Source of the DNA: Prevotella intermedia ATCC 25611 = DSM 20706 | GTDB lineage: Bacteria; Bacteroidota; Bacteroidia; Bacteroidales; Bacteroidaceae | Length of the DNA stretch: 64,000 bases | Direction of reading: 5' to 3' | Assembly: GCF_001953955.1 (NCBI RefSeq) | Contig: NZ_CP019300.1 | Coordinates: forward strand, 868,001 to 932,000 | In this document: positions 14,791 through 61,685 of the stretch, piece by piece | How the letters are laid out: the number at the start of each line of letters is the position of its first letter | How positions within the stretch are numbered: the stretch's first letter is position 1 | Made by a program: the position numbers and the translations under genes | The notes under the pieces: generated by a model | What the model was told of the DNA's origin: nothing | What the model saw: only the letters and a program-made list of their open reading frames with translations | Databases searched by the model: none

Positions 14791-14976
14791 TGTAAAGAAA
14801 ATAGCATTAAAAAGTGATAACTGTGCTTTGACGTTGCGAAAGCGGCTCTTTTGCGCTGCAAAACCTACGCTTTTACCGTGCAAAACAGCCGCTTTTGGAA
14901 TGCAAAACAATAGGTTTTGTAATGCATTGATAACAAGGTGGTTATATAAAAGATACCCTTTGAAAAAATATTTACA
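14791..14976 (+). repeat. 186-bp dispersed element, copy 1
   Basis: Bounded by TGTAAA (14791) and TTTACA (14976), exactly 186 bp. Contains four AAA(A)-heptad-TTTT modules: GCGGCTC, CCTACGC, CAGCCGC and CAATAGG. It lies in a convergent gap, ending 15 bp from the stop codon of the TPR gene. Confidence 0.9.
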
Positions 14977-14990
14977 CTTTTGTGGTATTT

Positions 14991-16568
14991 TTAATAAGCT
15001 GTTCTGCGCTTGTTAATCCTCGAACGAATGGAACGGATAGAGCCGTCTGCGAGTCCCATAATGTGCATAATGTCCTTGTCGGTCTTGCCCAAATGTTCCA
15101 TAACGAGGAAAAATTGATACTTCGGAGAGAGTGTATCGTATTCCGAATCCAACGAATCTACAAAACTCATATTTATCAAACGATAGTATTCTATGAAGTT
15201 CTCGAATTCTTTTTTCCGCCAAAGCACTGTCGTTTGCCCTTCCATAATATGGGTATAGAGCCTGTGCCCCTCGCTGAGTGTCTTTCGGTGCTTGTCGAGC
15301 AGTATCTCCTTTTTTCTGTATAGCGACTCTATTTCCTTTTCTTTTTCCTGCCCTTGTTTCTCAAATTCGGCTATTTGACCTTCAAAAACCTTGATGCGCC
15401 GTTGGTCAATGGCAAGTGCATTCTTGGCTTTATAGGTTCTGTATCGTAGGAAGAAAAAGACTACGACGAACGAGAGCGAGAGTAAGATAATGGCAAAGAT
15501 ACCCGTTTCTATCTTCCGCTCGTATTCCTGCTTTGCCTTTATGTTGTCGAAAGCTATTTGGTTGCTCCGTATGTCGTTCTCTCTCCAACTCGTATACAGG
15601 CTGTCTTTCGTTCTTATAAGTTGTCGTGCCGTTTTTATGGCTCCTTTATAGTCGGCTGTGGCACATTGGTGGTTGAACCTTGAGTTCATCACATCGGTCC
15701 TTACTTGCATGTCGTTCGTCTTCAACGCTTTGTCCCACAGTTCGTTTGCCTTGGCTGTGTCGCCCTCACCGACGTAGATTGTGGCAAGATTGTCGTATGC
15801 AGCCCCCATTGGCGCAATGCTAATTGCTTTCAGCAGTGTTGCCTTTGCCTTTTGTGGATTGGTGGCTATGAGCTGTGCGCCGATGTTGTTGAGTATGTAT
15901 ATTTGTTCTTGTCGGGGTATGTAGTGCAACATTTCCATACTTTTCTTTATATAAATGTTGGCACTGTCGGCTTTGTCCAACTTGTTGTAAGCCACTGCAA
16001 TGTTGTTGTAGGCACGGGCAAGCTGCACTTTGTCCTTTGCCGTCGTGGCAATTCGGAGAACTTTCTTGGCATATCCGAGGGCAAGTTGCCGTTCGCCTGC
16101 CTCTTCGTTCATAATGAAAAGGTTCTCGTAGATTTTAAGTTTAAGATTGTCAGAAGTCAGCTTTTCGGCAGTATATTCGGCTTTCTTCATACAGACAATG
16201 GCTTCTTTCACCTGTCCTTGGTCGTAGACAATTGCCCCTTTGTGAAAATAAGCATCTGCCAACTGCTCCACATTGCCTTTCTGTTTTTCGTAGTATTCGA
16301 TGCTGTAATCTATCATATCGGTAGACTCTATGGGCTTGTAGAGCTTGTAGAGAAGATGTGTTTTCTGAAGAAAAAAGTCGGCAGAATCAGCACTGCTCGT
16401 CAAGTTGGCAGCATCTACCATATCTATTATTCTAAAAGCAGAGTCGATTTGGTTGTGTCGAATCAGCGAGTCAATTTCAGTCAGACGGTTGCTTGTCTCT
16501 GACGGAGTATGCCGACAACCGCATAATATGACCGTAAGTAATAGTAAAATAGGGAAAGGTTTGTTCAT
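14991..16568 (-). CDS. TPR membrane-anchored regulator with C-terminal DNA-binding-like domain
   Basis: This 525-residue protein follows a layout common in Bacteroidales. There is a lipoprotein-type signal (LLTVILCGC, cysteine 18). A tetratricopeptide array spans about residues 25-340, with repeats such as AYNNIAVAYNKLDKADSANIYIKKS. One transmembrane segment lies at about 352-374 (IFAIILLSLSFVVVFFFL). A coiled coil of about 80 residues (FEGQIAEFEKQGQEKEKEIE) follows. The C-terminus, YQFFLVMEHLGKTDKDIMHIMGLADGSIRSIRSRINKR, resembles a LuxR/sigma-region-4 helix-turn-helix. It probably senses something in the periplasm and signals inside; the target is unknown. The gene is monocistronic, and its 3' end nearly abuts a 186-bp element. 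Confidence 0.85.
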   Translation of the reverse strand: MNKPFPILLLLTVILCGCRHTPSETSNRLTEIDSLIRHNQIDSAFRIIDMVDAANLTSSADSADFFLQKTHLLYKLYKPIESTDMIDYSIEYYEKQKGNVEQLADAYFHKGAIVYDQGQVKEAIVCMKKAEYTAEKLTSDNLKLKIYENLFIMNEEAGERQLALGYAKKVLRIATTAKDKVQLARAYNNIAVAYNKLDKADSANIYIKKSMEMLHYIPRQEQIYILNNIGAQLIATNPQKAKATLLKAISIAPMGAAYDNLATIYVGEGDTAKANELWDKALKTNDMQVRTDVMNSRFNHQCATADYKGAIKTARQLIRTKDSLYTSWRENDIRSNQIAFDNIKAKQEYERKIETGIFAIILLSLSFVVVFFFLRYRTYKAKNALAIDQRRIKVFEGQIAEFEKQGQEKEKEIESLYRKKEILLDKHRKTLSEGHRLYTHIMEGQTTVLWRKKEFENFIEYYRLINMSFVDSLDSEYDTLSPKYQFFLVMEHLGKTDKDIMHIMGLADGSIRSIRSRINKRRTAY

Positions 16569-16772
16569 CTTAGTTTAATTTCTATTGCTACAAAAATACA
16601 TTTTTTTTCTTAGAAATCGGCATATTTTAGGTATTGACATACTTTTTTTGTTGCATTTTTATATTGCATAGCCCTTTCAGTAAGCCTGAAAAGTATTGCA
16701 ATAGGCTTATAATCAGACGTTTTGTATTTATCTTATGTCGCAACAGAGTATTTTAATAAAGTGATAGAAAAC

Positions 16773-16803
16773 TTGCATTTTTGAATAATTAATTCTATTT
16801 TTG
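16773..16803 (+). promoter_or_regulatory. Promoter of the LRR gene at 16861
   Basis: TTG at 16773-16775 and TATTTTTG at 16796-16803, spacing 20 bp. Upstream, TAAGCCT...AGGCTTA (16681-16709) is a 7-bp inverted pair between the divergent genes. Confidence 0.7.
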
Positions 16804-16860
16804 TCTTAGAAACACAAATTAAGTGCACTGAAATAGATAACGACTTAAACAACTATCGGT

Positions 16861-18681
16861 ATGGAAAAGAACGTAAAGAAAACACTTTTGCTGCTTACAA
16901 TCTTCCTTGTAGGCTTTTTGAATGTTGCGTGGGCACAAGATAACCAGCCTGCTGAACCTTTTGTGAAAATGCACTTTGCAGGCGCAGTAAATAGCAAATA
17001 TGCGCTGTTGATAATGGGTGCGGAAGAAGGAGAGTACACCCTTGATTGGGGCAATGGAAAGACTTATAAAGGCAAACTCCACAAAACAGCCACGCGCATA
17101 CAGGGCAATACCGAAGGACAAGACCTGACTATCTACGGAAACATTGCAGTTTTAGAATGTTCCAACAACCAACTGACGACTCTCGACGTTACAAAATTGC
17201 CTGCACTTACGCATCTTATATCACGTAAAAACTTTGTCAGGGCTTTGGACGTATCAGCCAATACCGAACTGAAGTTTATCTATGTGCAGGATTCGCCGTT
17301 AGAACAACTCGACCTAACTCGCAATTCCAAGGTAGACAGCCTTATCCTTACCAACAACAGACTTAAGGAACTGACGCTCGCATCGCACCCAACGCTGGAA
17401 CTGCTTATGTGTACGTCGAATGCACAACTGAAGAAACTAAACCTTAAGGAATGTCCTAAGCTAAAGCATCTTGATGCCTTACAGACGCTTGTAGATGAAT
17501 ACGACTTGAGTGGGAATGGCGAGTTGAGGTATGTTGCAGTAGGAATGGGACGACCATTGCGTACACTTTCGTTGCCACAAAACAACAAGATTGATACGCT
17601 GATGGTGCCTGCCGCGGGACTGAAGAAGATAGATTTGTCGCAAACAAAGCAACTAAAGCTGTTGGGAATAGACAACAACTACGAGCTTTCGCAGCTTGAT
17701 TTGACAGGAATGAAGCAACTGCGGGATTTGTCGTGCGAGGGAAACAGCCTCACGAGTCTGAATCTATCGGATTGCCGAAACCTTGTTACGCTGGTGTGCA
17801 ACAATAACCAATTGTCAGATCTTGATGTCAGTGGATTGGACAAGTTAGAGATTTTAACCTGCTTTTCTAACGACCTTTCCTCGTTGAATCTAACAGGTTG
17901 TACAAGTCTAAAGAGCTTGGATTGCTCGGTAAACCCTAAATTGAGTACAGCTGACCTTCCTCGTTCGCTGACCTCTCTCAATTGTAGCAGCTGCAGTTTC
18001 TCGCAGATAGAAACAACAAAACTGCCATTGCTGACCAACCTTACTTGCGATGGCAACCAAATTGGCACGCTTGATTTGTCGGCACAAACGAAGCTTACAG
18101 CTGTCAATTGTAGCAATAACAAAATTAAACAACTTGATTTCAGCAACTGTGTTAATCTGCTTGATGTCGTCATTGCTGGAAATCCAATCAACGGTGGCAT
18201 CAGTTTCGCTAATTGCAACAACTTGCGTTATGTATCTGTGAACAATACAAAGTTAGACGCTTGTGCCTTGAACGATATGTATCGCTCTCTCAGAAAGAAG
18301 CGTCCCGAGGACGAACACAACGACTTGCACGGCATTCTTCTGTTCAACAATGTTCCTGGAGCAGCTGAAGTGAGCCGTACGCAGATTGCAACAGATAAGG
18401 GTTGGTTGGTTTCTAATGTCGGTGATGGCACGGGTTGTCAAGAGGACGGAATCGCCAAAGTTGGTTCCGAGAGTCAGTTGTACATCAATGCAACCGACGA
18501 TGGCTGGGTGATTGGCAATCTTCCTGCCGATGCACGTGAGGTTCTGCTCACCACTCTTGGCGGACAAGTAGTGGCTCGCTACCGCGTTACGGCACCATCG
18601 TTGCGTGTAAAAGCTCCACGGAAAGGAGTATATATCGTTTCGGTAGATGGTGGAAACAGCAAAGTTTGCATACAGAAGTAA
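16861..18681 (+). CDS. Secreted leucine-rich repeat protein with T9SS-type C-terminus
   Basis: The protein has 606 residues. The signal peptide ends at AWAQ (residue ~25). The N-terminal beta module (about 30-95), with LDWGNGKTYKG and TIYGNIAVL, is clearly related to the modules of the protein at 9362. About twenty LRRs of ~21 residues follow (LTSLNLSDCRNLVTLVCNNN type), rich in cysteine at the L-x-C position. The last ~80 residues end RVKAPRKGVYIVSVDGGNSKVCIQK, the shape of a T9SS sorting domain. It is probably a cell-surface protein; its ligand is unknown. It is separated by 64 bp from the next LRR gene, and the two may be transcribed together. The start at 16861 fits both the promoter and the signal peptide. 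Confidence 0.9.
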   Translation: MEKNVKKTLLLLTIFLVGFLNVAWAQDNQPAEPFVKMHFAGAVNSKYALLIMGAEEGEYTLDWGNGKTYKGKLHKTATRIQGNTEGQDLTIYGNIAVLECSNNQLTTLDVTKLPALTHLISRKNFVRALDVSANTELKFIYVQDSPLEQLDLTRNSKVDSLILTNNRLKELTLASHPTLELLMCTSNAQLKKLNLKECPKLKHLDALQTLVDEYDLSGNGELRYVAVGMGRPLRTLSLPQNNKIDTLMVPAAGLKKIDLSQTKQLKLLGIDNNYELSQLDLTGMKQLRDLSCEGNSLTSLNLSDCRNLVTLVCNNNQLSDLDVSGLDKLEILTCFSNDLSSLNLTGCTSLKSLDCSVNPKLSTADLPRSLTSLNCSSCSFSQIETTKLPLLTNLTCDGNQIGTLDLSAQTKLTAVNCSNNKIKQLDFSNCVNLLDVVIAGNPINGGISFANCNNLRYVSVNNTKLDACALNDMYRSLRKKRPEDEHNDLHGILLFNNVPGAAEVSRTQIATDKGWLVSNVGDGTGCQEDGIAKVGSESQLYINATDDGWVIGNLPADAREVLLTTLGGQVVARYRVTAPSLRVKAPRKGVYIVSVDGGNSKVCIQK

Positions 18682-18745
18682 TGACAGCGTGTGAACATTG
18701 CCAAGCGTTAATGTACTTGATTAGTAAATATAGATATTGTAGATT

Positions 18746-20686
18746 ATGAAAAAGTTGATGACATTGTTTCTCTTTCTGTGCGCTTTTGCACAAGCATCTT
18801 TCATCTCTGCTGCAGTTAAGGCTGCTCCCAAAGGAGAAGATGGTGAGAGAGTAAAGAAAGTTGTAGTCCATGTTAATAAAGCTGGCGAACTTGAAGACAA
18901 GGTTCCAGAGAATGTGTGGCTTGATGTTGTAGATACGCTGAAGATAGTTGGACCACTGAACAGCTACGACCTGCGCTGGGTGAGAAAGTTCTGTGGCTCC
19001 GACGAATATGGCGCACTGATTCCCAAAACGCTGAAAAGAATAGACCTTTCTGAGGCTACTTTCGTTTCTACTGGTGATACATCGGAGAGCTACTATATCT
19101 TTACTGATGATTTAGGAAAGGATAGAAAATACTTCGTTGATGGCACCAAGCCAACCCTTCTGCCCGAGAAACTCTTCTTCAAATGTTGCAGCATCGAGTC
19201 GATAGTACTTCCTAAGTATATCCGAGAATTAGGTATTGGCGCATTCTTCAGGTGCGTCAGTATGAAAGAAGTCATCATTCCCGACGAGGTAACCGATATT
19301 CAGCACACGGTATTCGGTGTCTGTGCCTCGTTGGAAACCATCAAGTTGCCGTCGCAACTCAAGACAATGGGAAATTATGTATTCACCTATTGCGAGAAAC
19401 TGCAGGAAGTTATTATCCCCGATGGTGTAACGAAAATCAACAAACGAACATTCGACCAGACACCTAATATGAAGAAGCTGACCCTTCCAAAGAATCTTCA
19501 AGAACTGTCGATTGAAGCATTTTTCGGTGCAAATGGGTTGGAAGAGATTCAAATCCCAGAAGGAATCACGATGCTACCCGAAGGTTCTTTTGGCTTTTGC
19601 GAGGCATTGAACAAGGTGGAATTGCCTGCGTCAATCACAAAGATAGACAAGAATGCTTTCCAAGATTGCCCTAATTTGGAAACGGTAGAAATGAAGGAAG
19701 GACTCAAACACATCGCCGTATATGCGTTTCAGAACTGTAAGAAGCTGCATGATGTGAAGCTTCCAAACTCGTTGGAAACCATAGAGAACGAAGTATTCCT
19801 CAATTGCACCGATATGTCGGGACTGAAATTGGGCAATGGATTAAAGACGATAGGCGAGAAAGCCTTCTTCCACAATCATGGTATAGAGTCGCTCAATTTA
19901 CCCGAAACGGTAGAGAAAATCGACTATGCAGCCTTTGCCGAGTGTCTTGGACTGAAGCGTGTGTCGTTGGGCAAGTCTGTTGCGGAAGTTGTTGACAATC
20001 CGTTCCTCGGCTGCACTGCACTTCAAGCGTTTGAAGTAGATACCGACAATAAGAAGTATGCGGTGGAAGACGGCACGCTCTATTCAAAGGATTACACCAC
20101 ACTTTATATTTATCCGAACGGAAAGGAAAGCAAGACTTTTGTGCTGAATACTGCTACAAAGAAGATAAACGACTTTGCTTTTTGGTATTGCAAGAACCTC
20201 GAGAAAGTAGAATTTTCGCCCGTTTTCAATGAGTTTGGTTACAGAGCATTCTGCGGTTGCAGTGGTTTGAACAATCTGATAGTCAAGACCAAAACACCAG
20301 TAGAGAACCCCTATACAGACGATGTGTTTGAAAATGTCAAAAAAGAGTCGTGCACGCTGACCGTACCAGCAGGCAGCAAGCAGGCTTATCTTGCATCGCG
20401 CACGTGGAAGGACTTCAAGATAGTAGAGGCTGTTTCCGATGCAGTGGAGAGTGTTTACAGTGAGAAGACAACCGTGAAGAACAACGGAAACAGTATCGTA
20501 GTATCGAACGTAGCGTCTGGTTTCCACACGGCTACACTGTACGACCTTATGGGACGTAAGATTTCGGAAGCTGCGGTGCAGTCAGGTAGAGCACAAATTG
20601 ATGCCACTGGTGTTCCTTCTGGAATCTATGTGGTTACGCTTCGCGGTACGCAGGGCAGTTGTTCAATGAAACTGACATGCGATTAA
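18746..20686 (+). CDS. Secreted BspA-like LRR_5 protein with T9SS-type C-terminus
   Basis: The protein has 646 residues. The signal peptide covers about residues 1-22 (MKKLMTLFLFLCAFAQASFISA). A region unlike the repeats (about 30-130) comes first. Around fifteen BspA repeats of ~23 residues follow, for example IEKIDYAAFAECLGLKRVSLGKS and LKTIGEKAFFHNHGIESLNLP. The last ~75 residues, including TATLYDLMGRKISE and PSGIYVVTLRG, resemble a T9SS sorting domain. BspA of Tannerella and its relatives bind fibronectin and other bacteria; the same role is only inferred here. It follows another LRR gene by 64 bp on the same strand. The TTG/TAGATATTG sequence between them is a poor promoter, so a bicistronic unit is plausible. 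Confidence 0.9.
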   Translation: MKKLMTLFLFLCAFAQASFISAAVKAAPKGEDGERVKKVVVHVNKAGELEDKVPENVWLDVVDTLKIVGPLNSYDLRWVRKFCGSDEYGALIPKTLKRIDLSEATFVSTGDTSESYYIFTDDLGKDRKYFVDGTKPTLLPEKLFFKCCSIESIVLPKYIRELGIGAFFRCVSMKEVIIPDEVTDIQHTVFGVCASLETIKLPSQLKTMGNYVFTYCEKLQEVIIPDGVTKINKRTFDQTPNMKKLTLPKNLQELSIEAFFGANGLEEIQIPEGITMLPEGSFGFCEALNKVELPASITKIDKNAFQDCPNLETVEMKEGLKHIAVYAFQNCKKLHDVKLPNSLETIENEVFLNCTDMSGLKLGNGLKTIGEKAFFHNHGIESLNLPETVEKIDYAAFAECLGLKRVSLGKSVAEVVDNPFLGCTALQAFEVDTDNKKYAVEDGTLYSKDYTTLYIYPNGKESKTFVLNTATKKINDFAFWYCKNLEKVEFSPVFNEFGYRAFCGCSGLNNLIVKTKTPVENPYTDDVFENVKKESCTLTVPAGSKQAYLASRTWKDFKIVEAVSDAVESVYSEKTTVKNNGNSIVVSNVASGFHTATLYDLMGRKISEAAVQSGRAQIDATGVPSGIYVVTLRGTQGSCSMKLTCD

Positions 20687-20889
20687 TCAATTACATTATT
20701 AATAATAAAGACGATATGAAATGGAAAGACGATGCCGCCTTGAATACTTCAAGACAGCATTGTTTTTGCGTATATGGACATCTGTAAAATGAGTATTAGA
20801 TGAAATCTGATAATGAACAATAGAGTTTTATTTAGGGAACAATTTCCTTTTTGTCGCTTAAGGCAAATATTGGAAATTACCTCTGACTT

Positions 20890-21075
20890 TGTAAAGATAA
20901 TTCTGATGGAAAATGATAATTTCGATTTGGCATTGCGAAAGCGGCTGTTTTGCGATGCAAAACCTACGCTTTTACCGTGCAAAACAGCCGCTTTTGGAAT
21001 GCAAAACAATAGGTTTTGTAAAGTATTGATACATAATAAGTTAGGTGATAGATGCGTGTATGAAAAATATTTACA
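20890..21075 (+). repeat. 186-bp dispersed element, copy 2
   Basis: TGTAAA at 20890 and TTTACA ending 21075, exactly 186 bp. Heptads GCGGCTG, CCTACGC, CAGCCGC, CAATAGG. It lies in the 20687-21398 gap between two same-strand genes. Apart from this element and the dsbD promoter, that gap shows nothing recognisable. Confidence 0.9.
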
Positions 21076-23762: not shown

Positions 23763-23770
23763 CAACGCTT

Positions 23771-25439: not shown

Positions 25440-25481
25440 AAAAGCGAGCATCTTGTTTTCAAGGTGCTCGCTTTATTTTTC
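25440..25481 (+). terminator. Terminator after the coiled-coil lipoprotein gene
   Basis: AAAGCGAGCATCTTG pairs with CAAGGTGCTCGCTTT around TTTT, followed by ATTTTT. Long stem with one G-T pair. Confidence 0.88.
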
Positions 25482-25540: not shown

Positions 25541-25726
25541 TGTAAAGAAATTTTCAAATAGATAGTTTGGTTTAACTGCCTTATTATCAATGCTTTGTAA
25601 AACCTATTGTTTTGCATTGCAAAAGCGGCTGTTTTGCACGGTAAAAGCGTAGGTTTTGCATCGCAAAACAGCCGCTTTCGCAATGTCAAAATGTAGTTAT
25701 CACTTTTTAACAATATTTTCTTTACA
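25541..25726 (-). repeat. 186-bp dispersed element, copy 3 (inverted)
   Basis: TGTAAA at 25541 and TTTACA ending at 25726, exactly 186 bp, in minus orientation. Read along the element the heptads are GCGGCTG, CCTACGC, CAGCCGC, CAATAGG. It lies between the convergent lipoprotein and tadA genes. Open frames across it are artefacts of the repeat. Confidence 0.9.
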
Positions 25727-28382: not shown

Positions 28383-28448
28383 AAATATGACGTCATTTTC
28401 GGTCAAATATGACGTCATATTTGCTTGAATATGACGTCATATTTTTTA
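28383..28448. repeat. Three-unit 22-bp array of the palindrome ATGACGTCAT
   Basis: ATGACGTCAT occurs at 28387-28396, 28409-28418 and 28431-28440, exactly 22 bp apart. Units 2 and 3 extend to the longer palindrome AATATGACGTCATATT. The array lies between the convergent pyrH and tsaE genes, away from any promoter. Phase and symmetry suit cooperative binding of a dimeric protein. The function is unknown. Confidence 0.85.
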
Positions 28449-36041: not shown

Positions 36042-36116
36042 CGGGATGTAGTTCAGTAGGTTTAGAATGCTGGTCTGGGGGACCAGTGGTCGCTGGTTCG
36101 AGTCCAGTCATCCCGA
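36042..36116 (+). tRNA. tRNA-Pro (anticodon GGG)
   Basis: The acceptor stem CGGGATG pairs with CATCCCG. The anticodon stem CTGGT/ACCAG encloses the loop CTGGGGG, with anticodon GGG at 36077-36079. The T arm is CTGG-TTCGAGT-CCAG. The 3' sequence after the discriminator A is CAA, so CCA is not encoded. A terminator follows at once. Confidence 0.97.
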
Positions 36117-36121
36117 CAAAG

Positions 36122-36227: not shown

Positions 36228-36413
36228 TGTAAAGATAATTCTCTTAAAAAGTGATAATTGCGTTTTGGCATTGCGAAAGCGGCTGTTTTGCGTTGCAAAA
36301 CCTACGCTTTTACCGTGCAAAACAGCCGCTTTTGGAACGCAAAACAATAGGTTTTGCAAAGTGTTGATAGTTAGGTAGTTAAAAGAGAAATATGTTTGCG
36401 AAAAATATTTACA
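36228..36413 (+). repeat. 186-bp dispersed element, copy 4
   Basis: TGTAAA at 36228 and TTTACA ending 36413, exactly 186 bp. Heptads GCGGCTG, CCTACGC, CAGCCGC, CAATAGG. It lies between the tRNA and the convergent gene at 36606. Confidence 0.9.
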
Positions 36414-37950: not shown

Positions 37951-38189
37951 ACGTGAGTTCGATATAAGAATTTTCTCCAATATATTATCTATAAGGCACT
38001 TAGAGATTTAATAAACTCCAAAATAAAGAAATAATCTTGTAATTCGAGTATTTATTACCACTTAAAAGGGTTATAGTGAGCTATTTTATCTAATCAAGTC
38101 CATTTTAAAAAGAATTAATAACAACCTAATATACTTATAATCAATAAGAAACGGAATATTTTCATTTAATTCTTATATCGAACTCACGT
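37951..38189. mobile_element. MITE-like element with 22-bp terminal inverted repeats
   Basis: The ends begin ACGTGAGTTCGATATAAG and are perfect inverted copies for about 22 bp. The element is 239 bp long and has no open frame of note. It is flanked by the direct repeat TAGTTTA (37944-37950 and 38190-38196), which looks like a 7-bp target duplication. It may be a non-autonomous derivative of an insertion sequence not present here. A related end (GTGAGTTCGGCATAAG) is at 61402. Confidence 0.7.
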
Positions 38190-44819: not shown

Positions 44820-45005
44820 TGTAAATATTTTTCACAAGTATAACTATTGTTTAACTTGTTTATTATCAACGTATTACAAAACCTATTGTTTTGCGTTCCA
44901 AAAGCGTAGGTTTTGCACGGTAAAAGCGGCTCTTTTGTAATGCAAAACAGCCGCTTTCGCAACGCCAAATCGAAAGTATCGTTTTTCGTCAGAATTATCT
45001 TTACA
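44820..45005 (-). repeat. 186-bp dispersed element, copy 5 (inverted, shuffled heptads)
   Basis: TGTAAA at 44820 and TTTACA ending at 45005, exactly 186 bp, minus orientation. Read along the element the heptads are GCGGCTG, GAGCCGC, CCTACGC, CAATAGG: modules 2 and 3 have changed places relative to copies 1-4. It lies between the convergent trxA and LpxA-like genes; the rest of that gap holds only two terminators. Confidence 0.9.
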
Positions 45006-53722: not shown

Positions 53723-53795
53723 ACTGTATTTAACTATTTGATAATGCAAAGTTACACATTTTTAGCTTAGTATTTGCACAAACCAAAGCATATTT

Positions 53796-53825
53796 AATTC
53801 CAAAAGAAACATTTCTTTCGGAATT
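53796..53825 (-). terminator. Palindromic hairpin downstream of the TonB-receptor-like gene
   Basis: On the minus strand AATTCCGAAAGAAA-tg-TTTCTTTTGGAATT is a 14-bp, nearly perfect stem followed by AAAT. There is no T-tract, so it may protect the 3' end or serve as a weak terminator. Confidence 0.45.
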
Positions 53826-53867
53826 GCATAGAACTGCCAATACAGTGGTTTTCTTTCCTTTTTATTC

Positions 53868-56174
53868 CTACAAACGGTTGATTTCGCTATTGCCTGCACC
53901 CTTTCCTTTATACTTGCTACGTGCTGTATTGAAGCTGTAACGAAGGGTTAGGGTGAAAGATTGTGTATCGCCTTTCAACCATTTGGTAGCTTCAATATCT
54001 GGTGTTTTCACTGTCCAACGTTCTCGCGAGGTGTGGAATATGTCCTCTATACTTAATGCCACCATCAAGCCGAAAGGGAAACTCTTGATTAATGATGCTG
54101 ATGTCGTGAAGTTCTGTTTATAGTAAAGCAGTCCGTCGTTGCCTGCTGTATATCCCGAAAAGTTCAATGTGGCAGTGTAAGACTTTGGAAATGAAAATAA
54201 ATTCTTGAAAGAATACTTTGCTATTGGTTTTGTATACTTCATACTATTGTATTCAAGCTGTTGGAAATAAGCCTGTAATGTTACCGACGGTTTCCATATT
54301 CCGAATGTTGGAGCATAAGATGCCATAAGATTGAAACTTTGGTAATCAATGTTTATAAATGAATTTAATCGAATCGGTTTGTCTTCTAATACTTCTTCGT
54401 AAAACGATATTGCGTTTTTATAAATAATGTAATTTGAACTCAAGACCAAGTCTTTATAGCGCAGAAGTAACCCCAAGTCGTAGATATTTGCAGGCTGCAA
54501 GGACGGATTTCCACCCTCATAGGCATAGCGATTGTTATAAGCTCGGCTGGCTCTTAACTGCATATACGACGGACGTGCAATGATGGAGCGGAGCGATAAA
54601 GTAGTTCCGAAACTGCTCTTAGAATAGTTTAAAGAAAGCGTTGGCAATAAGTTGCCGTACTTTTTCGATTGTGCATCTTGTTTAACGCCATTCAATCTAT
54701 AATCGAAAGCTACCCACTCGTACCGTAAGCCAACATTGGTACTCCAATGTTTCCACGCTTTACTGTACTCACTGAATAGTGCCAACGAGTTTTGTTTTGC
54801 CTGATTACCATTCGATGTCAAGGAAGAAGTGTGGTCAGGGTCGGCTAATTCAAAGGCTTGCGTATTGTTGGTGTAAGTGTATTCCTCGCCAAATGTAAAC
54901 TTACCGATAGGCATTGACTTTGAAAACATTACATTTTCGGCAAACATATCTGTCTTTCGATAGCTCTTGCTACCAACTGTTATTGTTTTGTTGTGTTCTA
55001 TTTCGGTGGTATTCAAATCGGTTGTAAAGTCGATACGAGCATAAGTGGTATTCATTTCCACCTCCCATTTGTTCTTGAAAGTCTTCAAAAGATAGGCTGT
55101 TGCATTATGTCTTCCACCATAATAGTTTTGAAAATAATAGCTGTTAAATGTATGGTTGCCTTCCAAGTCGGAAGATGTTAGCGTAGAATAAAGGTTGAAC
55201 GGGATTTTTATGGTTCGAGAATATATATACTTCAGTCCTGCATAAAAGCTGTTATCGAGTGATACATAGTTTGTACCAGCCTGCGAAACAAGATACCTAC
55301 CCTTGCTATTTTGTTTGTTTGAATTATGCGATACAATCGTTGTCCCTTTATAATTAAACGCTACATCGTTGGTTTGCTCCTCGTCTGATTTGTTTTCTTG
55401 GTAATAAACAGAGCCGAAAATATCAAATGCCCCCTTGCGGTAGTTGAGTTTAAGAAAGTCGTTTTGACCAAAATTATGGTTTACTTTTCCGTTCCATTGT
55501 ATTGTCCCCGACCAACCATCGCCTTGTGTACGAATTGTTGTAATGCGTATCACTGCTCCCACATTTGACGGGTAACGGCTACTAGGGTTCATTATTACCT
55601 GCACATTTCTTATTTGATTGCCTTTCAACCCTACGAGTTCTGTGTTACTTGTTATTTTTCTTCCGTCAAGATAAACAAGCGGTTTACCTTTCCCTAATAC
55701 GGTGATTGCATTGTCCGAAGCACTAAGGAAAGGCAGCTGGTTGAGTACGTCGGAGAGTGAAGGCAGTTTCGCTAACGCACTGCCTTGTATGGTAGACGTA
55801 AGTCCTCCTGCATTCATTGTATAAAGACTCCTGTTGCCTTTCACCACAACTTCAGCCATTTCGTTACTGCTTGGCATTAATATAATGGTGCCTGCATCAG
55901 CAGAATGGCAGTCTGAGTATTTTGTTTCGTAGCCCATACACGAAACTCTCAAAATGCCATCAATACTTTTTGTTTCAATGGTAAATACTCCATTAGCTTT
56001 GCTTGCTGCACCGCTAATAAACGAAGAGTCGGCTTTTGAGAGCAGACAAACGTTCGCCAATTCAAGGGGCGCACCTTGTGCGTCTACAACTTTTCCTTTA
56101 ATACTTTGCGCCATCATATCTAATGATGTAAAGAAAAACAATAGTAGTAGAGTTGTTTGGATATTTTTCCTCAT
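53868..56174 (-). CDS. TonB-dependent-receptor-like outer membrane beta-barrel protein
   Basis: The 768-residue protein (from MRKNIQTTLLLL) has a signal peptide ending MMAQ. An N-terminal CarboxypepD_reg-like domain (about 25-105) starts SIKGKVVDAQGAPLELANV. A plug-like region follows with LPSLSDVLNQLPFLSASDNAITVLGKGKPLVYLDGRKI and IRNVQVIMNPSSRYPSNVGAVIRITT. The outer-membrane beta-barrel (about 230-768) resembles the OMP_b-brl_3 group. The usual TonB box is not evident. Such proteins may import peptides, metals or small ligands; the substrate is unknown. No SusD partner or regulator is adjacent. It has a good promoter at 56202-56233. Confidence 0.88.
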   Translation of the reverse strand: MRKNIQTTLLLLFFFTSLDMMAQSIKGKVVDAQGAPLELANVCLLSKADSSFISGAASKANGVFTIETKSIDGILRVSCMGYETKYSDCHSADAGTIILMPSSNEMAEVVVKGNRSLYTMNAGGLTSTIQGSALAKLPSLSDVLNQLPFLSASDNAITVLGKGKPLVYLDGRKITSNTELVGLKGNQIRNVQVIMNPSSRYPSNVGAVIRITTIRTQGDGWSGTIQWNGKVNHNFGQNDFLKLNYRKGAFDIFGSVYYQENKSDEEQTNDVAFNYKGTTIVSHNSNKQNSKGRYLVSQAGTNYVSLDNSFYAGLKYIYSRTIKIPFNLYSTLTSSDLEGNHTFNSYYFQNYYGGRHNATAYLLKTFKNKWEVEMNTTYARIDFTTDLNTTEIEHNKTITVGSKSYRKTDMFAENVMFSKSMPIGKFTFGEEYTYTNNTQAFELADPDHTSSLTSNGNQAKQNSLALFSEYSKAWKHWSTNVGLRYEWVAFDYRLNGVKQDAQSKKYGNLLPTLSLNYSKSSFGTTLSLRSIIARPSYMQLRASRAYNNRYAYEGGNPSLQPANIYDLGLLLRYKDLVLSSNYIIYKNAISFYEEVLEDKPIRLNSFINIDYQSFNLMASYAPTFGIWKPSVTLQAYFQQLEYNSMKYTKPIAKYSFKNLFSFPKSYTATLNFSGYTAGNDGLLYYKQNFTTSASLIKSFPFGLMVALSIEDIFHTSRERWTVKTPDIEATKWLKGDTQSFTLTLRYSFNTARSKYKGKGAGNSEINRL

Positions 56175-56201
56175 CTTATAAGTTGCGTTAGTTGTTAGTT
56201 G

Positions 56202-56233
56202 CAAAAGTAATTATATTTCATTAAAATGCCAAA
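56202..56233 (-). promoter_or_regulatory. Promoter of the TonB-receptor-like gene
   Basis: On the minus strand TTTG (56230-56233) and TACTTTTG (56202-56209), spacing 20 bp. The start codon is at 56174. Confidence 0.78.
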
Positions 56234-56458
56234 TAAACAACAAATAATTTACTATTAAACCGTAATGTATTTAAAAAAAGCACTTTACAATGTTTCTTAA
56301 CATCGCAGAATAGATAGTTTCTGGATTCAAAAGCGGAGTATTTGCATTTTTGGCACTTCGTATTTATTGTTCTGAAATCCAGTAAATGGCGCAATAAATT
56401 TAACACAACTGAAAAGGGTGAAATAGAGAAAAAGAAAGCGATAAAAAAGGAATGAATT

Positions 56459-56614
56459 TGTAAAATAGCTTATTTTACTTTGCGAAAGTGTAGCTCTTAC
56501 CGACCAAAAGCGGCACTTTTGCAATGCAAAACAGCCGCTTTTGCAAGCTATTTGAGCTATATTTATGCTGAAATTGTGTGCAAAATAGGGCGAAAAACCC
56601 TTGTTTTGCCACAC
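56459..56614 (+). repeat. Degenerate relative of the 186-bp element
   Basis: It starts with TGTAAA at 56459 and has GCGAAAGTG, AAAAGCGGCACTTTT and AAAACAGCCGCTTTT at the expected spacing. The fourth module is lost. A separate hairpin GTGTGCAAAATAGGG...CCCTTGTTTTGCCACAC (56576-56614) follows. No TTTACA end is found. The rest of the 56234-57005 gap shows no gene. Confidence 0.6.
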
Positions 56615-56936: not shown

Positions 56937-56968
56937 TTTTGCCATTACCTTATTTTACAGTATCTTTG
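56937..56968 (+). promoter_or_regulatory. Promoter of the ftsX operon
   Basis: TTTTG at 56937-56941 and TATCTTTG at 56961-56968, spacing 19 bp. Confidence 0.8.
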
Positions 56969-57005
56969 CATCAACTTTGGCGTATTATCCCCAAATTTAT
57001 AACAG

Positions 57006-57884
57006 ATGGCGAAAAGACATAAAAAGATAGAGAAGCCTCACAGCTTGCAAGTAGTAACGCTCTGCATAAGCACGGCAATGGTGCTTATCCTTATCGGAAT
57101 GGTGGTTTTAACGGTGTTTACGAGCCGCAACCTCAGCCAATTCGTGAAAGAGAATTTGACGGTAACGATGATTCTTCAACCCGATATGAGCAACGAAGAA
57201 TGTGCAACGCTGTGTGCGCAAGTAGACCAATTGCACTATATCAGTAATCTGAACTTCGTTTCCAAGGAAGAAGCCTTGAAGGAAGGCACTCGCGAATTGG
57301 GAGCCAATCCTGCCGAATTTGCAGGCGAAAACCCGTTTACGGCAGAAATTGAGGTGAAGTTAAAGGCAAATTATGCCAACAACGACTCTATTAAAGCCAT
57401 TGCAGGACAGCTGAAGAAGTTCAAGGGTGTCAGCGATATTACCTACCGACAAGACTTGGTGGAAAGCGTGAACCGAACGTTGGGCAAGATTAGTATTGTG
57501 CTGCTGATTATCGCAGCCTTGCTTACGGTGGTGTCGTTCTCGCTCATTAACAATACGATACGTTTGAGTATGTATGCCCGCCGCTTCACCATTCACACGA
57601 TGAAGCTCGTTGGTGCATCGTGGAACTTCATACGAATGCCATTCCTGCGCACAGCCGTTTTGCAGGGTTTCGTATCTGCCTTGATAGCGATTGCCGTGCT
57701 TGGCTTGGGTATGTACCTATTATATACTTACGACCCAGAGATAGCTGTGGTGCTGGATTTGAATGTTATGGTGGTTACTGCCGTTATTATGTTGGCATTT
57801 GGCATTCTCATCACTTTCTTCTGCTCGTGGCTTTCGGTGAACAAGTTCTTGCGAATGAAAGCAAGTTCGCTGTATAAAATCTAA
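57006..57884 (+). CDS. ftsX: Cell division protein FtsX
   Basis: It is the membrane subunit of the FtsEX complex, which controls peptidoglycan hydrolysis at the division septum. The 292-residue protein has an N-terminal cytoplasmic tail and a first transmembrane helix (about 17-38). The extracytoplasmic domain (about 40-160) contains VTMILQPDMSNEECATL and ENPFTAEIEVKLK. Three C-terminal helices belong to the FtsX/MacB permease fold (SIVLLIIAALLTVVSFSLINNTIRLSMYARRFTIHTMKLVGAS). Length and topology match. ftsE is not next to it here. It heads the operon ftsX-DUF3098-uppP-truB-queA-folK from the promoter at 56937. Confidence 0.93.
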   Translation: MAKRHKKIEKPHSLQVVTLCISTAMVLILIGMVVLTVFTSRNLSQFVKENLTVTMILQPDMSNEECATLCAQVDQLHYISNLNFVSKEEALKEGTRELGANPAEFAGENPFTAEIEVKLKANYANNDSIKAIAGQLKKFKGVSDITYRQDLVESVNRTLGKISIVLLIIAALLTVVSFSLINNTIRLSMYARRFTIHTMKLVGASWNFIRMPFLRTAVLQGFVSALIAIAVLGLGMYLLYTYDPEIAVVLDLNVMVVTAVIMLAFGILITFFCSWLSVNKFLRMKASSLYKI

Positions 57885-57950
57885 AACAAAGGATATTCTT
57901 GGAAATGTTGCCGACAAGCAGGTGGGTGGCATTTCATAATTTATAATGAA

Positions 57951-58193
57951 ATGGATAAGAAGAATTTAGCATTTAGCAAAATCAATTTCATCTTGTTGGC
58001 TATCAGTGTTGCCATTGTAGTGTTGGGCTTCATATTGATGAGCGGTGGCAGTTCTACCGAGACGCAGTATAATCCTGAAATCTTCAGTGCTATGAAGATA
58101 AAGGTTGCTCCTGTAGTTACATTCATTGGTTTCATCTCTATTATTGGTGCCATTATGTACCAGCCGAAACATAAAGACGACGCCGAAGCATAA
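57951..58193 (+). CDS. DUF3098 family small membrane protein
   Basis: The 80-residue protein has two transmembrane segments (about 11-31, INFILLAISVAIVVLGFILMS; about 53-70) and a charged tail KHKDDAEA. The pattern matches the small Bacteroidota proteins known as DUF3098, of unknown function and typically found beside ftsX and uppP. Its stop codon overlaps the uppP start by one base (TAATG), so the two are translationally coupled. A role in envelope or division is suggested by context only. Confidence 0.85.
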   Translation: MDKKNLAFSKINFILLAISVAIVVLGFILMSGGSSTETQYNPEIFSAMKIKVAPVVTFIGFISIIGAIMYQPKHKDDAEA

Positions 58194-59008
58194 TGGACTT
58201 AATTCAAACCATTATTATTGCCATTGTTGAAGGCTTGACAGAGTTCCTGCCTGTGTCTTCGACAGGTCATATGATAATAACCCAACACCTGTTGGGCGTG
58301 CAGCAGGGCAATCCGTTTGTTCACGCTTTTACGTTCATCATACAGTTTGGAGCTATTCTTTCGGTTGTTTGTCTGTATTGGAAGAAGTTTTTTTCCTTCA
58401 AGCCTGAAATGTGGAAACTGTACGGACTGCTTATCATTGGTGTGTTGCCAGCTGTTGTTGTAGGCTTGGCAGCCAAGAAAAGCGGCTTGCTCGATTGGTT
58501 GTTGGACTCTATTTGGGTGGTAGCCATAACGCTTGTGCTGGGTGGTATCTTTATGCTTTTCTGCGATAACATCTTCAATAAGGGCAGAGAAGAGAACGAA
58601 GTAACGCCTAAGCGTGCGTTTCTCATAGGTTTGTTCCAATGTCTTTCGGTCATTCCCGGTATGAGCCGCTCTATGTCTACCATTGTTGGTGGTATGGCAA
58701 ACAAACTTACACGCAAGAAAGCAGCAGAGTTTTCGTTCTTCCTTGCCGTACCGACGATGGCGGGCGCAACTATTCTTGACGTGTACGATATGATGAAGGA
58801 AGATGTAAAATGGGCTACAAGCGACAACTTTTTCTTATTAGGTGTAGGCTGTGTGGTTTCTTTTGCAGTTGCCATATTTGCTATGAAGTGGTTTGTAAGC
58901 TTCCTTACGAAGTATGGTTTTAAAGCCTTTGGTTGGTATCGTATCATCGTTGGTGTTATCCTTTTGGCGATGTTGCTTTCTGGAATGTCGCTGAATATGG
59001 TCGATTAA
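58193..59008 (+). CDS. uppP: Undecaprenyl-diphosphatase UppP (BacA)
   Basis: It dephosphorylates undecaprenyl pyrophosphate to recycle the lipid carrier for cell-wall and surface polymers, and can confer bacitracin tolerance. The 271-residue integral membrane protein has the two hallmark motifs VEGLTEFLPVSSTGHM near the N-terminus and SVIPGMSRSMSTIVGG near residue 155. Eight hydrophobic segments follow the family topology. The start overlaps the DUF3098 stop by one base, and truB follows after 26 bp. Confidence 0.96.
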   Translation: MDLIQTIIIAIVEGLTEFLPVSSTGHMIITQHLLGVQQGNPFVHAFTFIIQFGAILSVVCLYWKKFFSFKPEMWKLYGLLIIGVLPAVVVGLAAKKSGLLDWLLDSIWVVAITLVLGGIFMLFCDNIFNKGREENEVTPKRAFLIGLFQCLSVIPGMSRSMSTIVGGMANKLTRKKAAEFSFFLAVPTMAGATILDVYDMMKEDVKWATSDNFFLLGVGCVVSFAVAIFAMKWFVSFLTKYGFKAFGWYRIIVGVILLAMLLSGMSLNMVD

Positions 59009-59034
59009 CGTTTAAACGCTTCAGTCAGAAACGT

Positions 59035-59742
59035 ATGAATTTCAAGGAAGGTGTTATCATACCCATCGACAAACCGTATGGAATAACGAGTTTCAAGGCG
59101 TTGGCGCACGTGCGTTATCTTTGCTCGAAGGCGCAGGGAGGACGTGTAAAGATAGGTCATGCAGGTACGCTCGACCCATTGGCAACAGGTGTTCTCATTC
59201 TTGCAACAGGCAAAATGACCAAGCAGATAGAAACTTTGCAGACGCATACAAAGGAGTATGTTGCCACAATGCAGTTGGGAGCGACCACACCAAGCTATGA
59301 TATGGAGCACGAGGAAAACGAAACTTTCCCCACAGAACATATCACGAGAGAGCTGATAGAAACGGAATTGCAGCAGTTTATCGGCGACATTGAGCAGATA
59401 CCGCCTACTTACAGTGCTGTAAAAGTGAATGGACAACGTGCTTTCGACTATCGTAGAAACGGCGAGGACGTAGTTCTGAAACCTAAGAAAATAAGGATAG
59501 ACGAAATAGAAATTACCAGTTTCGATGCCGAGAAGATGCAACTTACACTCCGAGTTGTTTGCGGCAAGGGAACCTACATACGCGCATTGGCACGCGATTT
59601 AGGGCGTGCTATCAATAGCGGTGCCTATCTTGTTGCGCTCCGACGCACCCAAGTAGGCGATATAAGAGTAGAAAAATGTATAAATTACGACCATTTCCAA
59701 GAATGGTTGAACGAACAGAACATAGAAATTACAGATAAATGA
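59035..59742 (+). CDS. truB: tRNA pseudouridine(55) synthase TruB
   Basis: It makes pseudouridine 55 in the T loop of tRNAs. From [16 protein letters not shown] the protein has 235 residues. The catalytic aspartate is D47 in [15 protein letters not shown]. Other family motifs are [23 protein letters not shown] and [13 protein letters not shown]. The frame opens inside uppP at 58933, but the conserved N-terminus starts at 59035. The queA start overlaps the end of truB by 4 bp (ATGA). Confidence 0.95.
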
Positions 59743-60926
59743 AGCTTTCGCAATTTAAATTCAACTTGCCCAACGAGCAGGTAGCTTTGTATCCACATTC
59801 GTCAGAACGTGTGTTGAACCGTGCCGACGGAACAAGTCAAGTATTCAAAGTAACGCGTAGAGACGAAGCCCGTTTGATGGTTGTGCATAAGAAATCGGGA
59901 ACGATTGATATGTATAACAACAAGAAAATAAAGGGTGAACCTACGGAAGAAGACTATATCCGCTTTAAAGATGTAGTGAATTATTTTGATGAAGGCGACA
60001 CCTTTATATTCAACGACACAAAGGTTTTCCCCGCTCGTCTTTATGGTACGAAGGAAAAGACCGATGCTAAAATCGAGGTATTCTTGCTGCGAGAGCTGAA
60101 TCAAGAAATGCGTTTGTGGGACGTTTTGGTAGAACCTGCCCGCAAAATACGTATTGGCAACAAGCTCTTCTTCGACGAATCGGGCTCTATGGTTGCCGAA
60201 GTGATTGACAATACCACGTCGCGTGGACGCACACTTCGCTTCCTTTACGATTGTTCGCACGAAGAATTCAAGCGCGAACTCTATGCTTTGGGCGAGGCAC
60301 CGCTGCCCCGCTACATCATAGACAACCGTCCGAAAGGTGCCGACGAGGATTTTGCGCATGCCGACGCTGACGATTTGGAGAACTTCCAGACGGTGTTTGC
60401 AAAGCACGAAGGAGCGGTTACTGCACCTGGAACAAACCTCCACTTCTCCGAACATCTTATGAAGATGATGGAGATAAAAGGCATTCAGACTGCTTATATC
60501 ACCTTGCATTGCGGTTTGGGCAACTTCCACGACATTGAAGTGGAAGACCTTACGAAGCACAAAATGGATTCAGAGGAAATGCATATCTCTGCGGAGGCTT
60601 GCAAAATCGTGAACGAAACGAAAGCTGCAAACCATCGTGTGTGTGCCGTTGGTGCAAGTGTTGTGAAGGCAACCGAAACTGCTGTAGGCACAGACGGTAT
60701 GTTGAAAGAATACGATGGTTGGACAAACAAGTTCATCTTCCCACCTTACGACTTCGGTTTGGCAGACTCTATGCTCGTTAATTTCTATCACCCGTATTCT
60801 ACTTTGTTGATGGAAACAGCGGCATTTGGTGGATACGACCTTATAATGGAGGCTTACGACAAGGCTGTCAAGGCGGGTTATAAGTTCGGTTGCTTCGGTG
60901 ATGCACTGCTCATCTTGAACGATTAA
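59739..60926 (+). CDS. queA: S-adenosylmethionine:tRNA ribosyltransferase-isomerase QueA
   Basis: It converts preQ1 in tRNA to epoxyqueuosine with SAM as ribosyl donor, part of queuosine synthesis for GUN-anticodon tRNAs. The 395-residue protein has [38 protein letters not shown], and the C-terminal [18 protein letters not shown] and [29 protein letters not shown] motifs. It is somewhat longer than the E. coli enzyme, with an insertion near residues 195-225. The start overlaps truB by 4 bp, and folK follows after 37 bp. Confidence 0.95.
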
Positions 60927-60963
60927 TTCCGTATTTAAAGGATTTTAAAGCAGACAAACAAAG

Positions 60964-61374
60964 ATGCAGCACACAGTGTATCTTGGGTTAGGCTCTAACC
61001 TTGGCAACCGCAAGGCAATCTTAAACGAAGCTATTTCTCTTATTCAGAATAGAGTAGGAGAGGTCGTTCGGCAGTCGTCGTTCCTCGAAACCGAGCCTTG
61101 GGGATTCGAAAGTCCTAACAATTTCCTCAATGTTTGCCTATGTGTAGATACGCAGCACGCACCCCGTCAGCTGTTAGAAACCACGCAAGCCATTGAGAAA
61201 GAAATGGGACGTAGCCATAAAACCGTTAATCGCAAGTATCAAGACCGCATCATTGATATTGACATTCTGATGATAGACGACCTTAAAATCAGTGAACCCG
61301 ACCTCAAGGTGCCACACCCTTTAATGGAAGAACGCGACTTTGTGATGATTCCTTTAAAGGAAATTATACCGTAA
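60964..61374 (+). CDS. folK: 2-amino-4-hydroxy-6-hydroxymethyldihydropteridine diphosphokinase FolK
   Basis: It transfers pyrophosphate to 6-hydroxymethyl-dihydropterin in folate synthesis. The 136-residue protein has the HPPK motifs YLGLGSNLGNR, the substrate-loop region SSFLETEPWGFESPNNFLNVCL and DRIIDIDILMID (the two metal-binding aspartates), plus a PHPLMEERDFVMIPL end. The length is at the short end of the family, as is usual for Bacteroidales stand-alone enzymes. It is the last gene of the ftsX operon. Confidence 0.95.
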   Translation: MQHTVYLGLGSNLGNRKAILNEAISLIQNRVGEVVRQSSFLETEPWGFESPNNFLNVCLCVDTQHAPRQLLETTQAIEKEMGRSHKTVNRKYQDRIIDIDILMIDDLKISEPDLKVPHPLMEERDFVMIPLKEIIP

Positions 61375-61499
61375 ACGATTATTTTTTCACATTAATATAA
61401 TGTGAGTTCGGCATAAGAAAGCAGGTTAAGCAAGCTATCTCACAGATGTTTTCTAAGCAAGTTCTCTAATGAAACAGTGAGCGTTCTTTCGTTTAACTT

Positions 61500-61685
61500 T
61501 GTAAAGATAATTCTCTTAAAAAGTGATAACTGCACTTTGGCATTGCGAAAGCGTAGGTTTTGCAATGTAAAACCTACGCTTTTACCGTGCAAAACCTACG
61601 CTTTTGGAACGCAAAACAATAGGTTTTGTAATGCGTTGATAACAAGCAAATTAGTCAATAGATGTACTTTTGAAGAATGTTTACA
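61500..61685 (+). repeat. 186-bp dispersed element, copy 6 (all-CCTACGC type)
   Basis: TGTAAA at 61500 and TTTACA ending 61685, exactly 186 bp. Heptads GCGTAGG, CCTACGC, CCTACGC, CAATAGG: heptads 1 and 3 have both switched from the GCGGCTG/CAGCCGC type to the GCGTAGG/CCTACGC type. It lies 125 bp after folK. Confidence 0.9.

Follow-up and report, generated by a model that had tools for sequence, protein, structure and literature searches.

Why should a repeat keep exactly the same length at scattered sites in a chromosome while the letters inside it change? This question is raised by six elements of 186 bp in a stretch of 64,000 nucleotides from Prevotella intermedia ATCC 25611 = DSM 20706 (assembly GCF_001953955.1, contig NZ_CP019300.1, positions 868,001-932,000 of the forward strand), here termed the window. 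The six elements are copies of a known repeat, PINSR. Its core comprises four units arrayed in step with the DNA helix; the length and the A/T tracts are conserved, whereas the words between the tracts vary. Short intergenic arrays with an identical 22-bp period come in several unrelated sequence types, of which PINSR is one. The copies in the window are as follows.

14791..14976, + strand: PINSR copy 1, 186 bp, with four 22-bp units at about 14838-14918
20890..21075, + strand: PINSR copy 2, 186 bp, with units at about 20937-21017 and orthologous copies in P. falsenii (genome G017) and genome G630
25541..25726, - strand: PINSR copy 3, 186 bp, between convergent genes and past an intrinsic terminator, with orthologous copies in G017 and G630
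36228..36413, + strand: PINSR copy 4, 186 bp, with tRNA-Pro (+) on one side and a minus-strand gene on the other
44820..45005, - strand: PINSR copy 5, 186 bp, whose orthologous gap in genome G677 holds an unrelated 22-bp array
61500..61685, + strand: PINSR copy 6, 186 bp, with an IS982-type inverted end in its left flank

All six run from TGTAAA to TTTACA over exactly 186 bp at these coordinates and on these strands, as a sequence-only reading of the window had reported. That reading had counted a match to a named repeat family against its proposal, and such a match exists. Naito et al. (2015) named a 188-bp intergenic repeat PINSR, counted 177 copies in P. intermedia OMA14 and 184 in P. intermedia 17, and found it also in P. 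falsenii, P. nigrescens and P. disiens, in the last by PCR (PMC4755523). Section 3.4 of that paper describes PINSR as lacking inverted ends, most likely non-coding and of unknown function, and mentions no internal period.

The P. intermedia genome comprises 2.674 Mb in two contigs. Copies were counted in a sample of 1.264 Mb, made up of the window, 40 evenly spaced stretches and 20 stretches partly picked at known copies. A first profile, made from the six window copies and run on 864 kb, recovers its own members at E values of 1.2e-53 or better and yields 74 full copies. A wider profile yields 123 full copies in the 1.264 Mb, 121 of them 186 bp long; the other two measure 187 bp and 164 bp, the latter being 186 bp minus one 22-bp unit. 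A core pattern allowing up to 3 mismatches matches all 123 full copies and occurs at 247 places genome-wide (126 on the + strand, 121 on the - strand; control 0). In P. falsenii, whose stretches were partly picked where PINSR copies were already known, the length is 186 bp in 39 of 44 full copies, 187 bp in three, 185 bp in one and 164 bp in one. The more distant G630 has two orthologous copies, of 187 and 186 bp, with different words. At E values of 1e-20 or less PINSR is found in 5 of 398 genus genomes, this one included, with full-length matches in the P. falsenii loci; none of full length was found in the four loci examined from P. disiens, a species reported as PCR-positive (PMC4755523). 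The terminal TGTAAA and TTTACA proved to be less sharp limits than had been claimed, and weaker conservation continues for about 25-30 bp on the left and 33 bp on the right.

In each 22-bp core unit, AAAA is followed by a 7-nt word, then by TTTT and a spacer of 7 nt, which places an A/T tract every 11 bp. Slot 1 usually starts with GAAA rather than AAAA and mostly carries the word GCGGCTG, GCGGCTC or GCGTAGG, while slots 2 and 3 mostly carry CCTACGC, CAGCCGC or GAGCCGC, and slot 4 carries CAATAGG in 66 of 72 copies. A complementary word pair (at least 6 of 7 positions) is present within slots 1-3 in 114 of 121 copies, compared to a mean of 90 and a maximum of 102 in shuffles, and slots 1 and 3 are complementary in 86 copies (shuffle mean 68.9, maximum 82). 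In P. falsenii, 34 of 39 copies have some complementary pair and 26 of 39 have one between slots 1 and 3. On either strand, the predicted folding of one copy is stronger than that of any of 200 shuffles (z of -4.2 and -5.75). Strict compensatory pairing of the words was considered and rejected; it is supported in the P. intermedia genome, is weaker in P. falsenii and runs contrary in the P. histicola-type arrays described below.

Conservation between species follows this anatomy. In 13 pairs of orthologous copies from P. intermedia and P. falsenii, identity is 98.8% in the A/T tracts, 87.2% in the spacers, 87.1% in the left arm, 79.9% in the words and 76.8% in the right arm, compared to 73.8% in the outer 80-bp flanks. 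There are 0 indels in 13 x 186 positions, while the flanks show 60 gap columns per 2050 aligned bases. Word changes in slots 1-3 of these pairs involve 0, 1 or 3-5 letters, with one case of 2. The suggestion of selection on spacing, made from the window alone, gains support from these pairs, although gene conversion could give the same outcome.

The same period is found where PINSR is absent. With PINSR removed, Tandem Repeats Finder (TRF) reports period 22 for 41 of 91 arrays outside genes in the 1.264 Mb and for 0 of 71 inside genes, and six further intergenic arrays have period 44. Four arrays without PINSR lie in the window, none with an assigned strand.

187..253: non-PINSR array of period 22 (TRF)
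6257..6339: TTTACACGTAAA-type array of period 22 without PINSR (TRF)
28383..28444: TGACGTCA-type array of period 22 without PINSR (TRF); the orthologous P. falsenii gap holds this type too
56462..56542: short AAAA-7-TTTT array without PINSR arms

The unit types, named by eye from consensus units since 7-mer clustering merged 44 of 47, include TTTACACGTAAA, TGACGTCA, CGGTATCTTTT, TTGGAC...GTCCAA and AAGCTT. Dyad symmetry in 36 units amounts to 7.17 pairs per unit compared to 5.74, with a maximum of 6.11 in 200 shuffles. When PINSR is masked, a lag test picks out 36 gaps at lag 22, and none of the other lags between 15 and 35 scores in more than one gap. Stretches taken at even spacing from three other species give 16 gaps at lag 22 in G010 (other lags at most 2), 2 in G016 and 3 in G024 (other lags 0 in both), and TRF reports period 22 for 15 of 51, 6 of 24 and 3 of 20 arrays outside genes, respectively, compared to 0 of 51 inside genes. 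G016 and G024 have no AAAA-7-TTTT matches, yet period 22 is the commonest intergenic period in G016 and is second in G024, after period 10. Intergenic autocorrelation peaks at lag 22 in all seven Prevotella sets and in none of four coding sets. G010 also has four arrays of 66-bp units (three times 22) outside genes, with 86-98% matches (L322, L325, L320, L331).

The AAAA-7-TTTT-7 design itself occurs without PINSR arms elsewhere in the P. intermedia genome and, with quite different words, in many Prevotellaceae. At up to 2 mismatches, 71 of 150 genus genomes match, some of the matches being AT-rich. The control was a 6/8 version of the spacing, because a reversed pattern also fits inside the arrays. 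Matches to the 7/7 and 6/8 spacings number 525 and 15 in the P. intermedia genome, 508 and 13 in P. falsenii and 157 and 3 in G010; the drop is smaller in some genomes, from 245 to 79 in G006 and from 42 to 18 in G027. A stricter pattern is found in 2 of 295 genomes across the order, namely this one and G332, where the words are unrelated. The 22-bp design of G332 (L222, L225), which belongs to another family of the same order, has GTCTAAC/GTTAGAC words and is perhaps of independent origin.

Arrays of other species (L101-L220, at least these among the matches listed) were retrieved by the AAAA-7-TTTT pattern itself. Of 98 non-PINSR arrays, 56 have their next downstream unit at exactly +22, 3 have it at another offset and 35 have none, with 4 ties; upstream, the unit is at -22 in 18, elsewhere in 7 and absent in 68, with 5 ties. 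Only the best offset per array is scored, and neighbouring offsets are excluded. Away from the seed array, TRF periods of 22 and 21 are about equally common at the pattern-fetched loci (11 and 12 of 150), with genes not separated. In P. histicola-type arrays, a set in which 22 loci carry the species name and 9 were assigned by word vocabulary, the words switch orientation a single time in 22 of 32 arrays compared to 8.6 expected.

Co-occurrence of PINSR with another 22-bp array in one intergenic gap is rare, and orthologous gaps are in some cases occupied by unrelated arrays. Once TRF arrays that share more than 10 bp with PINSR are set aside, gaps of at least 300 bp comprise 1 with both, 113 with PINSR only, 31 with another 22-bp array only and 92 with neither (odds ratio 0.026, p = 3.6e-9); for gaps of at least 100 bp the counts are 1, 115, 38 and 275 (p = 8.5e-5). 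The residual gap lengths are similar, at 385 and 367 bp. Array-bearing gaps of P. intermedia also have an array in P. falsenii in 21 of 22 cases, a rate inflated by the picking of P. falsenii stretches at PINSR copies, while array-less gaps do so in 3 of 18. Where both species have a non-PINSR 22-bp array in the same gap, four of six gaps hold the same sequence type and two hold different types. In G677, both mappable PINSR gaps, those of copies 20890 and 44820, hold an unrelated 22-bp array. The array in the first of these (L266) is absent from the TRF filter output and was recognised by lag matching, with 39 of 44 positions matching at lag 22 and at most 23 at eight other lags. This gap (L266:8036-9140) also contains, beside its AAGCTTATAAGCTT array, an extra open reading frame (ORF) whose product looks by eye like an HU-type DNA-binding protein.

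Another resemblance to G677 lies in the window at 53753-56276, where identity to G677 reaches 97.6%, compared to about 80-86% in the adjoining blocks. This segment encodes a 778-residue outer-membrane beta-barrel protein (OMP_b-brl_3), and the identity suggests recent horizontal exchange.

The arrays are also placed unevenly with respect to genes. Context was judged from ORFs of at least 100 amino acids, with small ORFs within the elements masked. No window copy lies inside such an ORF, in agreement with the sequence-only reading, and none of the first 74 copies does. Four of the six window copies had been placed between convergent genes; this is so if tRNA-Pro (36042-36117) is taken as the left neighbour of copy 36228, while ORFs alone give three convergent and three tandem sites. 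In the larger sample, PINSR sites are convergent in 49 cases, tandem in 52, divergent in 12 and at stretch edges in 10, compared to 67, 163 and 92 convergent, tandem and divergent PINSR-free gaps of at least 100 bp. PINSR is enriched in convergent gaps (odds ratio 2.9, p = 7e-6) and depleted in divergent ones (odds ratio 0.30, p = 6e-5). Strand bias in tandem gaps is not significant (31:21, p = 0.21; 23:8 among the first 74 copies). For arrays of other species, leaving out 22 of 120 loci that have PINSR words or come from P. falsenii or P. disiens, 27 sites are convergent, 40 tandem, 22 divergent and 16 at edges, compared to 20, 94 and 51 array-free gaps. A convergent excess is found here too (odds ratio 3.2, p = 6e-4), and the divergent depletion is absent (p = 0.31).

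How, then, did PINSR reach so many sites? IS982-type carriage accounts for a subset of the copies. Among the 44 P. falsenii copies, 13 pair with P. intermedia orthologs, three are absent from P. intermedia and 28 are unplaced within the sampled part. The three P. falsenii-only insertions are about 450 bp or more in length with inverted ends ACGTGA.TTCG..ATAAG. One of these composites has a clean 7-bp target duplication, and at the third the P. intermedia site is not cleanly empty and holds other sequence. The same inverted ends flank a 1025-bp element that encodes a 320-residue IS982-family transposase (NF033520, 281.7 bits) and has five copies in the sample, four being 97-100% identical to the first. 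Two features in the window have such ends.

37951..38189, no strand: miniature inverted-repeat transposable element (MITE) of 239 bp without PINSR, with the same inverted ends and a 7-bp target duplication
61400..61419, + strand: IS982-type inverted end with 1 mismatch to ACGTGARTTCGRYATAAGAA, to the left of copy 6

No convincing right end was found for copy 6, the nearest (4 mismatches) lying at 62847. An IS982-type end with at most 4 mismatches in 20 occurs within 400 bp of 13 of the 123 P. intermedia copies and of none of the other 110. Ends at this stringency number 36 in the 1.264 Mb compared to 6 in 400 kb of shuffled sequence, and only one pair convincingly encloses PINSR (L033), with one doubtful pair in the window. 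Because 110 copies have no such end, chance ends occur and the flanks of PINSR fall into several unrelated groups, this mode of carriage is limited to a subset. The recent spread suspected by the sequence-only reading holds for that subset, as 3 of 16 flank-placed P. falsenii copies are absent from P. intermedia, all in IS982-type composites; the other 13 of 16 are shared. Its statement that neither transposase nor target duplication is present holds for the 186-bp ends, which show no excess of target duplications in 72 copies, and must be amended for the larger composite, with its related 1025-bp insertion sequence and one 7-bp duplication. TGTAAA and TTTACA were rejected as transposition ends, given the lack of a duplication excess, the conservation past these ends and the size of the compared insertions (about 450 bp or more, not 186). 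Other repeats stand beside PINSR in the left flanks of one linked group (31 of 123), namely TTCTAGAAATTCTAG runs and a GGGGCGT...ACGCCC hairpin.

The simplest account of the shared exact period, the mutual avoidance, the site conservation and the swapping of sequences is that geometry is selected, and that PINSR and the other 22-bp arrays are interchangeable, helically phased arrays present at about one per gap. This is the reading that we prefer, tentatively and at somewhat less than an even chance. The selected feature would be palindromic or tract-paired units that recur every two turns, at 11 bp per turn, and so lie on one face of the DNA; this pitch has been tied to negatively supercoiled DNA (PMC4132750). 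An array may serve as a place where an architectural protein docks or nucleates, or as a sink for supercoil stress, placed about once per intergenic gap, preferably between convergent genes, without replacing terminators. The reader of the geometry would, we infer, be a protein or a supercoil-dependent structure. PINSR may be the commonest type because its core is carried by MITEs using the resident IS982-family ends, together with exchange of words among copies. A broader proposition, which we regard as possible but more doubtful, is that Prevotella has a class of intergenic elements defined by period and not by sequence. Its members would be dyad-bearing units at exactly 22 bp, about one array per gap, at sites kept across species and with swappable types; PINSR would be the most successful cassette, and function would lie in helical phase, through a sequence-tolerant architectural factor.

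Several observations weigh against the selection of geometry. No binding protein, transcript or phenotype was found for the arrays. In gaps of 250-400 bp, exclusivity is not significant (0, 17, 11 and 63 gaps in the order given above, p = 0.12), and the count as a whole drops PINSR-overlapping TRF arrays; the shared-site rate, as stated, is inflated. One PINSR gap of P. intermedia has no array in P. falsenii, one of three mapped PINSR gaps in G630 is empty while two hold PINSR, and no array was found in the G630 gap orthologous to the 28383 array. The convergent excess of non-PINSR arrays in P. intermedia is weak (odds ratio 2.35, p = 0.03) and is not significant in smaller samples (G010, p = 0.18; G024, p = 0.10; none in G016). 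The lag test in G016 and G024 rests on only 2 and 3 gaps, and its E. coli control, which showed no gaps at any lag in 200 kb, is small (30 kb intergenic). Autocorrelation at lag 22 in E. coli was tied top in the first 50 kb (z of 1.6), falling to a z of 0.0 in 200 kb. Exact complementary words in P. histicola-type arrays (17) fall below the shuffled value (26.1). Static curvature, estimated by a wedge model, does not unify the arrays, as the PINSR core and the TGACGTCA type reach the 97-100th genome percentile while TTTACACGTAAA arrays mostly lie at the 27th-56th; the modelled bend peaks at 20-21 bp, not 22. Finally, gene conversion or template switching could preserve length and tracts without selection.

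For PINSR itself, gene conversion and selfish spread have to be taken seriously as alternatives; they carry less weight for the arrays of unrelated sequence. PINSR may have no host function and be an IS982-driven MITE passenger homogenised by gene conversion, the other arrays being tolerated minisatellites that lie mainly between convergent genes since promoters do not tolerate them. This agrees with the three P. falsenii insertions in IS982-type composites, one with its clean duplication, with the five copies of the resident 1025-bp element, with word changes that come mostly in blocks (0, 1 or 3-5 mismatches, 2 in one case) and with the scarcity of PINSR in divergent gaps. It leaves unexplained one exact period in unrelated sequences, also in genomes without AAAA-7-TTTT matches, as well as the mutual avoidance and the unrelated 22-bp arrays at orthologous gaps, and just 13 of the 123 copies lie within 400 bp of an IS982-type end; taken together, it is unlikely, though far from negligible. 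An RNA element, in which read-through RNA folds as a long hairpin, stabilising 3' ends or serving as a substrate of RNase III, is rather improbable. Two turns of an A-form duplex also span 22 bp, and the folding of one copy on both strands, the complementary words of slots 1-3 (114 of 121 copies; slots 1 and 3 in 86 compared to 68.9), the single orientation switch in P. histicola-type arrays and the dyads in other 22-bp units would all fit a hairpin. However, strand preference in tandem genes is unclear, pairing is weaker in P. falsenii (34 of 39 for any pair, 26 of 39 for slots 1 and 3), exact complements are depleted in P. histicola-type arrays, no Rfam family matches, and copy 3 sits past a strong terminator.

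25441..25474, + strand: intrinsic terminator (hairpin and T run) just before copy 3, aligned in P. intermedia, G017 and G630

This conserved hairpin bears equally on the idea that PINSR is itself a bidirectional intrinsic terminator between convergent genes, which its convergent enrichment (odds ratio 2.9) and hairpin potential might suggest. Only 3 (+) and 2 (-) of 123 copies are terminator-like, compared to 66 of 406 intergenic control strands, and gene ends have a terminator-like site of their own in 49 of 127 cases where PINSR follows and in 65 of 227 where it does not; the low terminator-like score led to rejection of this idea, which is highly improbable. Curved DNA with phased A-tracts could be the function in itself, given that the PINSR core lies at the 99.86th percentile of genome windows and has AAAA or TTTT every 11 bp. 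Other 22-bp arrays, however, have a median at the 55th percentile relative to column-permuted arrays (n = 47), and the wedge model predicts more bend at 20-21 bp. Curvature is ordinary for TTTACACGTAAA arrays, mostly at the genome percentiles given above, and was rejected as the common factor, so this explanation appears quite improbable. Least credible, with almost no weight, is a REP-like origin, with a REP-associated Y1 transposase (RAYT) as the agent of spread. The repeats are palindromic and intergenic, and Y1_Tnp is found in 87 of 150 genus genomes, including the array-rich G010 and G006, but it was not found in the P. intermedia genome or in the array-rich G012, G017, G039 and G027; this origin was rejected since Y1_Tnp does not match array richness.

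Among other features of the window is a tmRNA gene at 12050-12449 with the tag GENNYALAA. At the Rfam gathering score, only tmRNA and tRNA match in the window, and none matches PINSR.

What is new here is the anatomy of the 22-bp core, the conservation of tracts and length with changing words, and the 22-bp period in unrelated arrays. If geometry is what selection sees, homology searches would largely miss such elements, and the intergenic repeats regarded as "junk" in a major human-associated genus would become a shared feature of its chromosomes. The purpose of PINSR would then become directly testable, and the arrays would provide a natural example of conserved sites whose sequence turns over.

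The closest known system is PINSR as published, and the match rests on that description rather than on a letter-by-letter comparison with its consensus (Fig. 4A of PMC4755523). Both are intergenic, the 188 bp given there equal the 186 bp here plus a conserved TT, both occur in P. falsenii, and small ORFs overlap the elements in both. A copy lies downstream of tnaA there, and here one lies 231 bp past a tnaA-like ORF (L357; the gene scores 527 bits, under the curated cut-off of 825.8). Copy number is 177-184 per genome there compared to about 247 cores here (PMC4755523). The four-unit 22-bp core, the IS982-type composite for a subset of copies and the other 22-bp arrays are additions of the present analysis. 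No literature was found on Prevotella or Bacteroidetes with A-tracts, with palindromic repeats at convergent genes or with 22-bp repeats.

In E. coli, repetitive extragenic palindromic (REP) sequences and bacterial interspersed mosaic elements (BIMEs) are palindromic intergenic repeats near 3' ends, proposed to dock gyrase or IHF. They resemble the present arrays in being palindromic and intergenic. However, they are defined by sequence and an associated RAYT, while here the period is the constant and the genome is without Y1_Tnp. The BrickBuilt MITEs of Porphyromonas gingivalis, from a related oral member of the Bacteroidales, are likewise intergenic arrays of short direct repeats, with a leader, a tail and small inverted ends, and 22-nt tandem repeats had earlier been reported in P. 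gingivalis strain W83 (Klein et al. 2015, PMC4596501). Their bricks are 23 nt long and present in 1 to 22.8 copies, giving elements of 84-991 nt at 19 loci, whereas PINSR has a period of 22 and four units in 121 of 123 copies. Finally, an 11-bp periodicity in bacterial genomes has been linked to negatively supercoiled DNA (PMC4132750). The pitch is the same, 22 bp being two turns, but that periodicity is diffuse, while here it is gathered into discrete arrays at about one per gap.

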